IMG/VR virus record: IMGVR_UViG_3300014720_000152
Span: 1-27,161 of that record
Strand: one strand, 5' to 3'
DNA length: 27,161 bases
DNA from: a virus
The notes below the pieces were generated by a model. That model saw only the letters and a list, made by a program, of their open reading frames with translations, was not told the DNA's origin and ran no database searches. Positions 5,417 through 22,756 of the stretch are shown piece by piece. Numbering within the stretch: position 1 is the first letter of the stretch; each line of letters opens with the position of its first letter. Made by a program: the position numbers and the translations under genes.

Positions 5417-5445
5417 TAATTTTCATTAGACCTTGTTTGTTTGAG

Positions 5446-5479
5446 TACCACCACACGTATAATGTGGTGGTATTTTTTT
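5446..5479 (+). terminator. intrinsic terminator after scaffold gene
   Basis: A perfect 10-bp stem (TACCACCACA with TGTGGTGGTA, 5446-5455 and 5463-5472), a 7-nt loop and a run of seven T at 5473-5479. It separates the packaging/scaffold operon from the capsid gene. Confidence 0.9.
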
Positions 5480-5490
5480 ATGTTATAATA
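5477..5490 (+). promoter_or_regulatory. probable promoter of the capsid gene (TTTAWGTTATAATA motif)
   Basis: TTTATGTTATAATA contains an exact extended -10 (TGTTATAAT, 5481-5489). It lies directly after a terminator and differs by one base from 14-mers at 6665-6678 and 23701-23714. Transcription would begin near 5496, giving a leader of about 133 nt before the capsid ATG. No convincing -35 is present. Confidence 0.6.
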
Positions 5491-5502
5491 AAATTAATTC
5501 TT

Positions 5503-5557
5503 GGCCAGTCCGAAAGGGTAGCTGGTTTAATAGTGAAGTCCGAAAGGGTAGCTTTAC
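5503..5557 (+). ncRNA. tandem bulged GAAA hairpins in the capsid mRNA leader
   Basis: Two hairpins share the 17-mer AGTCCGAAAGGGTAGCT at 5507-5523 and 5537-5553, a spacing of exactly 30 nt. Each can fold as a helix with a GAAA tetraloop closed by CC/GG, a U-G pair and a 3-nt UAG bulge. The lower stems differ but both pair: GGCCAG with CTGGTT (5503-5508/5522-5527) and GTGAAG with CTTTAC (5533-5538/5552-5557). A further imperfect hairpin (GCAAAG/TTTTGC, 5558-5581) and a small one (5581-5596) follow before the ribosome-binding site. This looks like a structured cis-regulatory RNA for the most highly expressed gene; its class is not recognised. Confidence 0.65.
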
Positions 5558-5628
5558 GCAAAGAAGAATATAGGTTTTTGCTTATCAGTAGATAGGCGTT
5601 TAATTATTTAAAAAAAGGATATAAAGCC

Positions 5629-6606
5629 ATGACTATTAGTCAAGCGTATATTAATCAATATACTGCTAATTTCCGTATTCTCTCTCAACAAATGGATTCA
5701 GTCTTTGAAAGACTGGTTACTATGGGTGATATTAATGCTGAGTTTAAATTTTTCCCAAGACTTGGCAGTATATCAATGAGTGAGAAAACAACCGCAAACG
5801 TAGCAAACACTTATACTAATGCTACTTTTAGCGTTCGTTCCGTTGATTTCAAAACTTTTGATGTTACTCAATTTGTAGATAAAAAGCTTGATGTTTCAAG
5901 GATGCTAACAGACCCTACTTCTTCTTATGTCCGTTTAGGCGTGGCAGCGTGGAAGCGTAAGATAGATGAAGTTTGTATCGCAGCAGCATTAGGTACAGCA
6001 GTTGATGGAAAGACCAGAGGCACTAACACTGCTTTCCCTACTTCCACTCAAACCGTTGATGTAAATTTCCTTGATGGAGACCCTATCGGTGCAGGTAACG
6101 GTACAGGTACTTGGACGAATAGAGCTCAATCAGGATTCACGTTAGCTAAAATTCTTAAAGCAAAAGAATTAGTTTACTCTAACTTTGCTTTAGAGCCGGG
6201 CGATAGAATTAACTGTGTAATTTCAGCAGCAGAAGAAACACAGTTGTATGGTATCCCTGAGTTTAAGAGTGGTGATTTTAGCCGTTTATACCCATACGAT
6301 AAACCAATGATGGGCGACCCTTACATTGGTACATGGTTAGGTATTGACTTCTACAGATCACAGCTACTAACTAACACTGACCCAGCAAGTGCAAATAACC
6401 ATTACAGATCATGCTTACTATTCCCTACAAGCGGATTAGGTGCATTTATCGCAGCGAATAACAGCTTAGAAATTCAAATAGCTGAAAACGTAGAGCGTGG
6501 ATTTGTTCCAACTATTTACATTAGTGGTGGACTTGGTGCAGTTAGAATCGAAGAAGTTAAGATGGTAGAAATTAGAACTTCTAGCGGTATCGCTGACCCT
6601 TCTTAA
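5629..6606 (+). CDS. major capsid protein
   Basis: A 325-residue protein following the scaffold, with a typical podophage coat N-terminus (MTISQAYINQYTANF) and a central EVCIAAALG helix near residue 118-126 followed by a Gly/Thr-rich loop. It forms the icosahedral shell (HK97-like fold is expected from the family, not shown here). AAGGA at 5615-5619 gives a good ribosome-binding site, 9 nt before the ATG. The gene stands alone between two terminators with its own promoter and structured leader, consistent with a need for very high, separately tuned expression. Compared with neighbours it uses more C-ending codons (for example ATC, TTC and TAC), as expected of a highly expressed gene. Confidence 0.9.
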   Translation: MTISQAYINQYTANFRILSQQMDSVFERLVTMGDINAEFKFFPRLGSISMSEKTTANVANTYTNATFSVRSVDFKTFDVTQFVDKKLDVSRMLTDPTSSYVRLGVAAWKRKIDEVCIAAALGTAVDGKTRGTNTAFPTSTQTVDVNFLDGDPIGAGNGTGTWTNRAQSGFTLAKILKAKELVYSNFALEPGDRINCVISAAEETQLYGIPEFKSGDFSRLYPYDKPMMGDPYIGTWLGIDFYRSQLLTNTDPASANNHYRSCLLFPTSGLGAFIAANNSLEIQIAENVERGFVPTIYISGGLGAVRIEEVKMVEIRTSSGIADPS

Positions 6607-6631
6607 TTTAATTCAATCCTAGTGAATTAAA
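6607..6631 (+). other. hairpin at the 3' end of the capsid mRNA
   Basis: A perfect 9-bp AT-rich stem (TTTAATTCA with TGAATTAAA) and 7-nt loop directly after the capsid stop and 1 nt before the terminator stem. It has no T-run of its own; it may protect the mRNA 3' end or assist termination. Confidence 0.5.
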
Positions 6632-6632
6632 G

Positions 6633-6667
6633 AATACCCTCATAGCAATATGGGGGTATTTTTTTTT
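6633..6667 (+). terminator. intrinsic terminator after capsid gene
   Basis: A 10-bp stem with one T-G pair (AATACCCTCA with TGGGGGTATT, 6633-6642 and 6651-6660), an 8-nt loop and nine T at 6659-6667. Confidence 0.9.
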
Positions 6668-6678
6668 AAGTTATAATA
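6665..6678 (+). promoter_or_regulatory. probable promoter of the tail/ejection operon
   Basis: TTTAAGTTATAATA, identical over 14 nt to 23701-23714 and one mismatch from 5477-5490. TATAAT (6672-6677) ends 7 nt before the ATG at 6684, so the predicted start of transcription falls on or next to the start codon, and no Shine-Dalgarno is present. This suggests a leaderless mRNA. Confidence 0.6.
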
Positions 6679-6683
6679 GATAT

Positions 6684-7265
6684 ATGCTAGTTTCTCGCTT
6701 GAATGTATTTAATCTTGCTTTATTGCAGTTAGGCAAAGAGCCAGTGCTAGACGTTAATGCTAATACGATAGAGATAGCAAAATTAAGAGAGGTAGAAACC
6801 TTTGCAATAGAAAGTTTATTGCAGGCTTCAAGATGGGATTTTGCTGTTAAAAAAACAGAATTAACATTTATTGCAGATTATACAAATGGTGAATTTTCTA
6901 AGTTATATTCTTTACCTAATGATTGTTTAGAGATATGGCGTGTTTATGACCTTGATAATCAAGATATAGACTATGCAAAGGTAGATCAAGGTTTAACATC
7001 TGATTCGTTGAGAGTGTTTGTTGAGTACACTAAGATCATGGGCGGTAACGATTACGGTAAATTTGATGCTACATTTTGTGAGGCATTAGCATTTAAGATG
7101 GCTGGTTTAGTCGCTCCAAGCGTTCAACATTCAGACACAAAAACAGATTATATTAATAGCAATTCTATAAAGAAGCAGGGCATAGCAGCAAGCAAAGCGG
7201 TCGGCAGAGGGTCAAGAACATATACTCAAAGTACAACTTGGCTTAATGGAAGGAATTTTAATTAA
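6684..7265 (+). CDS. tail tubular protein A, T7 gp11-like
   Basis: A 193-residue protein, essentially the length of T7 gp11 (196). It forms the ring that joins the portal to the tail nozzle. The N-terminus (NVFNLALLQLGKEPV, then LL.ASRWDFAVKK near residue 45-58) is diagnostic of the family. It overlaps the TTPB gene by one base (TAATG). The ATG has no Shine-Dalgarno and lies 7 nt from a TATAAT, so it may be translated from a leaderless transcript. Confidence 0.9.
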   Translation: MLVSRLNVFNLALLQLGKEPVLDVNANTIEIAKLREVETFAIESLLQASRWDFAVKKTELTFIADYTNGEFSKLYSLPNDCLEIWRVYDLDNQDIDYAKVDQGLTSDSLRVFVEYTKIMGGNDYGKFDATFCEALAFKMAGLVAPSVQHSDTKTDYINSNSIKKQGIAASKAVGRGSRTYTQSTTWLNGRNFN

Positions 7266-9406: not shown

Positions 9407-9728
9407 CAAATTAGATCAAATTATAGACGGGTATGTATTAGATAGAATAAGAGAAAAGGGAGCTGAAACCATTGCTTTAGAGCGAGAAGATAAGCTTATT
9501 GCAACTGCTTCAATCTATCAAGATGGAACATGCGATTTTTATAGAATGTCTTTATTGACTAATCAAGAAAAAATTAGTTTTTTAAAGGCAATTAAAAGGG
9601 ATTTGAAAAGCAGGTCAGGGATTGCGGCTTATGTTCAAAAGGAAAGTAAGGTTAATAATAGATTTGCTCAATGGTTAGGTTTTAAACTTGATAAACAAAT
9701 TCAAGGGTATAATTTTTATATATGGTAG
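9378..9728 (+). CDS. T7 gp13-like internal protein with GNAT-type C-terminus
   Basis: A 116-residue protein in the slot of T7 gp13 (138 residues), between tail tube and gp14-like genes. The C-terminal pattern (residues about 88-114: N..FAQWLGF......GYNFYIW) resembles the end of a GNAT acetyltransferase fold, as also seen in T7 gp13. A clear acetyl-CoA loop (Q/R-x-x-G-x-G/A) is not visible, so enzymatic activity is doubtful. It begins inside the TTPB gene and ends 7 nt after the start of the next gene, suggesting coupling. No Shine-Dalgarno is seen. Confidence 0.7.
   Translation: MKYKLTRSSNKLDQIIDGYVLDRIREKGAETIALEREDKLIATASIYQDGTCDFYRMSLLTNQEKISFLKAIKRDLKSRSGIAAYVQKESKVNNRFAQWLGFKLDKQIQGYNFYIW
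9708..9713 (+). promoter_or_regulatory. possible -10 box for the gp14-like gene
   Basis: TATAAT inside the 3' end of the gp13-like gene, ending 9 nt before ATG 9722, which has no Shine-Dalgarno. The arrangement matches the other leaderless candidates, but the bases also encode part of gp13-like (GYNF), so chance is a real possibility. Confidence 0.3.
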
Positions 9729-21919: not shown

Positions 21920-22756
21920 ATGTTTGGCGGTACAGCAGGAGCAGCAAAAATAACAAATGAATTAATCGCAGTTAGTGAACTGTTTACAGACAGATTTGAT
22001 AATCCTTTAAAAAACAGAATTAGTGAAGTATTTGAAGCTGAGTTTAATTCTAAGTTAGAAAAGGCTATAGAAAAAAACATTGGCAAACTTAAAGGTGAAA
22101 AAGGTAATAGTGGCGAGAAAGGCGACACTGGTAAAGATGGACTTAATGGCAAAGATGGTATCAATGGCATTGATGGTAAAGATGGATTGGACGGCAAAGA
22201 CGGCATTGATGGTAAAAATGGGCTAGACGGTAAAGATGGACTTAATGGTAAAGACGGTTTAGATGGCAAAGACGGTATCAATGGTATTAATGGTAAAGAT
22301 GCAGAATTTGATTATGAGTTTGCAAAGAAAGAGTTAGCTAGTTTATTTGAGGAGTGGAAAGCGAATCTAGGTGATCTTAATGGTAAGCAAGGGGAGCAAG
22401 GGCTTAAAGGTGATAAAGGCTTAGACGGGGCAGAATACCCTACTTACGAGAAACAGCTATTTTCAGAGGATTTAGCGTTAGTCGCACACCACAAATTGCC
22501 TAAGACCAATACACTGATTATAGTTTCGGTTTTTGCGATTTCTGGTCTTGGAAATTTTGTGCGTTTTGAAGAAGAAGTAATATTCCAAAATTTGGGTGGC
22601 GAAAGCAAACTACTAAGTAAGGGTTATTTTGTAAATGGCACGCCTAAAAATAAACCTAATTTATCTTACGAAATTAACATCGTTAATGGTTTTTTAAATG
22701 TTTTGGTAGCTGGTAAGACAAGCGAAATATTTGATGTTAAAGTAGTAATCAAATGA
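21920..22756 (+). CDS. collagen-like fibre protein
   Basis: A 278-residue protein with a strong ribosome-binding site (AAGGAG at 21907-21912). A helical N-terminus (1-58) leads into 23 uninterrupted Gly-X-Y triplets at residues 59-127, mostly GKDG(L/I)(N/D), then a helical spacer and six more triplets at 155-172. The last hundred residues are beta-like and probably form the globular tip. Gly-X-Y repeats form collagen-type triple helices in phage fibres and act as rods; Asp and Lys in the X and Y places replace hydroxyproline as stabilisers. It overlaps the next gene by ATGA. Confidence 0.85.
   Translation: MFGGTAGAAKITNELIAVSELFTDRFDNPLKNRISEVFEAEFNSKLEKAIEKNIGKLKGEKGNSGEKGDTGKDGLNGKDGINGIDGKDGLDGKDGIDGKNGLDGKDGLNGKDGLDGKDGINGINGKDAEFDYEFAKKELASLFEEWKANLGDLNGKQGEQGLKGDKGLDGAEYPTYEKQLFSEDLALVAHHKLPKTNTLIIVSVFAISGLGNFVRFEEEVIFQNLGGESKLLSKGYFVNGTPKNKPNLSYEINIVNGFLNVLVAGKTSEIFDVKVVIK

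Follow-up and report, generated by a model that had tools for sequence, protein, structure and literature searches.

The leader of the major capsid protein (MCP) gene in a viral DNA stretch, IMG/VR record IMGVR_UViG_3300014720_000152 (positions 1 to 27,161, the whole of the 27,161 nucleotides (nt) analysed and called the window below), contains two hairpins in tandem. Their conserved part is a 4 × 1 internal loop, GUAG opposite U, within a covarying helix, and not the GAAA hairpin loop that closes both of them. The hairpins covary, are conserved in distant phages and are placed almost exclusively before capsid genes. The element is real and conserved and seems to have no description in the resources checked, with strong evidence for its structure and its association with capsid genes, from which a mode of action is proposed below.

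Structure of the leader element

A 17-mer, AGTCCGAAAGGGTAGCT, was present in two copies in the capsid leader (5507-5523 and 5537-5553), exactly 30 nt apart as an earlier note on this DNA had reported, and nowhere else in the window. With up to three mismatches allowed, 0.04 matches were expected by chance, and two matches occurred in no shuffled sequence. The class is defined by the GUAG/U loop, or one of the variants given below, in a helix of direct or permuted form and by at least two copies per MCP leader, and the window holds the following two.

5503-5527 (+): hairpin 1, direct form, internal loop GUAG (5518-5521) / U (5509); GGCCAG (5503-5508)-U-CC-GAAA-GG-GUAG-CUGGUU (5522-5527)
5533-5557 (+): hairpin 2, direct form, internal loop GUAG (5548-5551) / U (5539); GUGAAG (5533-5538)-U-CC-GAAA-GG-GUAG-CUUUAC (5552-5557)

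The lower stems, said in the earlier note to differ in sequence and to pair over six base pairs, do so in both hairpins. When the 230-nt leader was shuffled 20,000 times with its dinucleotide content preserved, no shuffle had two such hairpins. The gain over shuffles in single-sequence folding was moderate (z of -1.7 for both hairpins jointly, -1.8 and -2.2 singly).

Conservation in related and distant phages

Near relatives were fetched from viral contigs by capsid protein alone, giving 19 loci, one of them with too little upstream sequence. The two hairpins were at the same place in all 18 relatives with enough leader, one of which was identical to the window here. Stems and hairpin loops were altered among these relatives and the stems still paired; in L004-L021 the core was AATCCG...CGGGTAGTT, with the G-C pair below the loop changed to A-U and with different hairpin loops. 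The GAAA tetraloop, which the earlier note treated as a defining feature, was abandoned as such, since the hairpin loops of relatives vary in length and sequence.

Distant capsid homologues of about 22-30% identity, and relatives of those homologues, were also inspected. The GUAG/U loop was present, often permuted, in the capsid leaders of ZP6, K300, phiVC8, L064, L065 and L073, all fetched by capsid protein alone, and also in the capsid leaders of Vibrio phage JSF9 and contig L071. Isolates with the element include phiVC8 (V. cholerae), Vibrio phage K300 and Alteromonas phage ZP6. The order in the permuted form is stem-GUAG-inner stem-loop-inner stem-U-stem, and the K300 leader has both forms, GAGG-GUAG-CGUCCAUCG-U-CCUC followed by GAG-U-CCGAAAUCGG-GUAG-CUC. 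Because both strand orders were found, the conserved unit is the 4 × 1 internal loop in a helix, whichever end bears the hairpin loop. The window clade is direct-direct, most other members permuted-direct and ZP6 permuted-permuted; leaders usually have two copies, with three in L077 and L106. The MCP genes that follow belong to two Pfam families, PF19821 and PF20911. Lack of conservation ahead of capsid genes in related phages, which the earlier note had named as grounds against its proposal, was checked for, and conservation was found in related and distant phages alike.

In the alignment of direct hairpins (A5, n = 37), 84.7% of the cells were paired against 68.4% after shuffling, a percentage that is inflated, as the hairpins of A5 and A6 were partly picked by pattern or pairing; the covariation score was 0.457 against 0.167, with both-side changes in all six lower pairs. 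For the permuted hairpins (A6, n = 28) the covariation score was 0.602 against 0.183 after shuffling. A slide of the pairing partner by one column destroyed the signal in both alignments. This covariation, together with stems that change among relatives yet pair, upholds the earlier view that structure is kept over sequence. Covariance model R3 was built without the window clade and its result for the window is therefore free of selection bias: it gave exactly two matches there, on the two hairpins (E 4e-6 and 1.5e-4), and also matched two hairpins each in L004, L005 and L006 (six in three relatives).

A scan for any 4 × 1 loop over 69 capsid leaders, with shuffles as control, yielded GCAG/U in 5 leaders, AUAA/C in 5 (stemming from few lineages) and AUAG/U in 3, besides GUAG/U and register-shifted readings; none of the three was found in shuffles. 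The loop purines change jointly with the opposite base, G..G with U and A..A with C, as an isosteric wobble exchange would give, which argues for a defined three-dimensional motif. The 3-nt UAG bulge of the earlier note is correct in that the helix is interrupted, and is better described as the 4 × 1 internal loop GUAG/U; a UAG bulge is one of two readings, and the data leave the choice between UAG and GUA open because both loop purines change together with the opposite base.

The leaders of L197, L120, L130, L150 and L215 have two more predicted hairpins between the GUAG/U hairpins, one of them with several compensatory changes, which gives these leaders the look of a four-hairpin array.

Association with capsid genes

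Two gene-blind scans were made across viral contigs. With the pattern AGTCCGN{2,9}CGGGTAGCT, 33 of 101 distinct matches among those listed had an MCP start on the same strand within 250 nt downstream, for which fewer than one would be expected by chance according to our own estimate. With the compensated pattern GAATCCGN{2,9}CGGGTAGTTC, counted outside the window clade, 13 of 27 distinct matches lay within 250 nt ahead of an MCP gene. Several reference capsids behind the counts of both scans came from matched loci, and all eight proteins tested with Pfam were capsids. In every phage record searched with the covariance models except L129, the capsid leader was the sole place with copies.

On the minus strand of L129, at about 9490-9550, two direct hairpins lie inside an open reading frame (ORF) not recognised as a capsid gene and encode a repeated Ser/Gly-rich stretch. 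This is the sole clear tandem case that is not ahead of a recognised capsid gene.

The capsid transcription unit

Other features of the capsid region of the window are the following.

5443-5475 (+): intrinsic terminator that separates the scaffold-like gene from the capsid unit, 13-pair stem followed by a T run
5481-5489 (+): extended -10 box TGTTATAAT, likely capsid promoter from its sequence, with no good -35
5497-5502 (+): ATTCTT, which in the predicted fold may form with AAGAAT (5564-5569) the closing stem of a junction round both hairpins
about 5580-5597 (5579-5598) (+): third hairpin GCUUAUC-AGUA-GAUAGGC, terminator-like, a lineage-specific accessory judged from its fold and the leaders of relatives
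5609-5618 (+): likely ribosome-binding site of the capsid gene, purine-rich, AAAAAGGA region
5629-6606 (+): MCP gene, phrog_3437, PF19821 Phage_capsid_2
6629-6664 (+): intrinsic terminator directly 3' of the capsid gene

The capsid gene is a stand-alone unit here, because the terminators at 5443-5475 and 6629-6664 flank it. Hairpin 1 begins 14 nt past the extended -10 box, from which a transcript start near 5496 is expected by the usual promoter spacing, and hairpin 2 ends 71 nt ahead of the MCP start. In relatives a -10-like box is kept at a similar distance from hairpin 1, and the ATTCTT/AAGAAT closing stem is conserved within the window clade, without covariation. The earlier note placed two further hairpins after the pair. 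One of them is the hairpin at about 5580-5597, between the leader element and the capsid ribosome site, to which a hairpin with a different sequence (GUUGCUC/GAGUAAC) corresponds in L005 and its relatives (the L005-L021 group) and which is absent from L004; the other is weak and A+T-rich, and their inclusion in the conserved unit was not supported.

Over the members of the class, the distance from the end of the last hairpin to the start codon was 31-71 nt, with a median of 40 (n = 37). In ZP6, L065, K300, phiVC8 and L071 the element closely follows a sigma-70-type promoter, with 6/6 in both hexamers for ZP6 and L065; in the window clade a -10 box takes that place. A terminator 3' of the capsid gene was present in the window clade, ZP6, L065, phiVC8 and the L084 group; in the first four of these a promoter on one side and an intrinsic terminator on the other enclose the gene. 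For phiVC8, the published promoter 2 at 5551-5601 (PMC4802629; JF712866, here L069) overlaps the direct hairpin of the element, and a better sigma-70 promoter (TTGACT, 17 nt, TATAAT) is found upstream of it. The published promoter 2 is probably a misreading of the direct hairpin.

In the window, at 6629-6690, a TTATAAT box directly after the capsid terminator and ahead of the next tail gene mirrors the terminator and -10 arrangement upstream of the capsid gene. The ORF at 21920-22756 has collagen-like Gly-X-Y repeats (KGEKGNSGEKGDTGKDG) and perhaps encodes a tail or fibre protein.

Comparison with known RNAs

No family of Rfam 15 matched the window or its relatives at gathering or relaxed thresholds, in agreement with the opinion of the earlier note that this is not a named class. 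For 13 further loci, the only match at the gathering threshold was a group I intron in L120 (3676-3894, +; RF00028, 87.7 bits), which is found shortly past the leader element and close to where the capsid gene starts. No description of the element was found in a literature search, in which a 2011 paper on antiterminator RNAs and a 2017 survey of RNA motifs were covered only via Rfam.

Tandem small leader hairpins are common to the capsid element and guanidine-II (mini-ykkC), the kinship suggested in the earlier note. This kinship was not supported, as the Rfam covariance model of guanidine-II was unmatched at both thresholds; guanidine-II is also associated with guanidine-related genes and not with capsid genes, and the element has no conserved hairpin-loop sequence. 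RNA-phage coat operator hairpins and lambda nut/boxB are likewise small hairpins with a bulge or loop to which a phage protein binds. They are single copy or of another loop class, in contrast to the internal loop in either strand order of the element. A kink-turn, in which a 3-nt bulge is followed by tandem sheared G.A pairs, did not fit either, since standard pairs flank the loop on both sides in A5 and A6.

Nearest in architecture, with tandem interrupted stems in a leader, was the pan RNA motif, a simple stem with conserved bulged bases that is mostly found in tandem and is thought to bind a dimeric protein (Weinberg et al. 2010, PMC2864571). It differs in having two bulged A in place of GUAG/U and in its place ahead of bacterial pantothenate genes, and its Rfam model was unmatched, so that the element was not assigned to it. 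The putL and putR RNAs of phage HK022 are also phage leader RNAs with two stem-loops close behind a promoter (PMC9378689), but they belong to early operons and have no GUAG/U loop, in contrast to the element of capsid genes. At putL (NC_002166), located from the same source, models R1 and R2 gave no match with filters off, and homology to put was rejected on this sequence and structure comparison. Put is characterised by an interaction with the beta' zinc-binding domain and by antitermination that needs no phage protein.

The E. coli rRNA operon, as a host RNA that might be mimicked, gave no match with the models. One permuted-plus-direct pattern, searched in 85,000 bacterial genomes, gave five matches without the rest of the second hairpin, which were judged to be due to chance.

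Proposed function and alternative explanations

The hairpins are taken here, with a probability of about 45%, as an undescribed class of cis-acting MCP leader RNA whose tandem sites would be recognised by an RNA-binding factor and which would protect the capsid mRNA or raise its level. The GUAG/U loop is the predicted recognition site of this factor. Binding at both copies would give a stable 5' structure, by which the capsid message would be protected and its ribosome site kept open, and the expression of a single gene could in this way greatly exceed that of its neighbours. Two observations, a spacing to the start codon that varies little and a stand-alone capsid unit in several lineages, favour an effect on how stable the capsid message is and how well it is translated. 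A conserved host partner would fit no worse than a phage protein and appears somewhat more likely, because the core is nearly unchanged across hosts and capsid families. Carried further, the element would be widespread and distinct from put and nut, and its 4 × 1 module would capture a host machine that is universally conserved, be it RNA polymerase, ribosome or decay enzyme, for capsid production, having arisen or spread before the different capsid families; this extension is put forward tentatively, as rather doubtful.

Several points weigh against the proposed leader RNA class. No element was found in epsilon15, phiV10, BcepC6B, the BPP-1 group, pelagiphages and several Manatee Spring phages. 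As it is missing from many phages whose capsids are related (the pelagiphages, the epsilon15 group and several of the Manatee Spring phages), it is not generally required. Many members have no visible promoter directly upstream and no visible terminator 3' of the capsid gene, so that the stand-alone unit is not universal. The selection of hairpins for A5 and A6, described above, counts here as well, and an effect on stability or translation is something that we infer from the structure.

Among the alternatives, the leader could act as a put-like nascent RNA that binds the host RNA polymerase elongation complex, suppresses pausing or termination and lets it pass the capsid terminator and the weak terminator-like hairpin ahead of the capsid gene. 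The arrangement of two stem-loops directly behind a promoter is that of HK022 putL (PMC9378689), terminators follow the capsid gene in the window clade, ZP6, L065, phiVC8 and the L084 group, and the terminator-like hairpin at 5579-5598 stands between the element and the capsid gene; a search of 24 records for a single-subunit phage RNA polymerase found none, a weak point as the control matched nowhere either. We nevertheless consider this unlikely, given that R1 and R2 are unmatched at putL, that the element is kept although in most lineages no terminator was seen 3' of the capsid gene, and that the distance to the start codon varies little, whereas a nearby promoter was not seen in many members. 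Somewhat more unlikely still is an autoregulatory operator, at which a late phage protein (capsid, scaffold or other), when in excess, would bind both loops and repress capsid translation, like the coat protein of RNA phages. Such an operator would be in line with a small loop that is repeated close to the ribosome site and confined to the capsid gene, but the same core precedes PF19821 and PF20911 capsids with little common sequence, for which co-evolution of the operator would be hard to explain, and the last hairpin, ending 31-71 nt ahead of the start codon, leaves the ribosome site uncovered.

Cleavage of a late polycistronic RNA at the hairpins by a host ribonuclease, releasing a separate capsid message, was judged improbable. 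It is in keeping with L084, L120, L197 and others, in which no promoter was seen directly upstream and the element may sit inside a longer transcript; in ZP6, L065, K300 and phiVC8, however, a good sigma-70 promoter directly ahead leaves little to cut, and RNase III sites are typically not short interrupted helices. A small-molecule riboswitch with tandem aptamers, after the comparison with guanidine-II, would account for tandem small hairpins in a leader, but is very improbable in view of the lack of any Rfam riboswitch match, the tiny core in either strand order, its confinement to capsid genes and the fact that no expression platform is kept across lineages. The least credit is given to a chance repeat or a signal at the DNA level, which comparison with other phages already contradicts: short repeats in two copies are often due to chance and the single-sequence fold scores are modest, but compensatory changes are conserved in distant phages, the orientation is fixed relative to the capsid transcript, and wobble-type partners are kept (G with U, A with C), which would have little meaning in DNA.

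Significance

As a defined RNA class with a clear consensus that is absent from Rfam, the element can be annotated now and used as a marker of capsid genes in metagenomes. Phages that depend on the host RNA polymerase must make capsid protein far above all else, and a shared leader module, present in culturable Vibrio and Alteromonas phages, offers a handle on how they may do so. If its partner is a host factor, the element would reveal a general way for a 5'-terminal RNA to raise expression.
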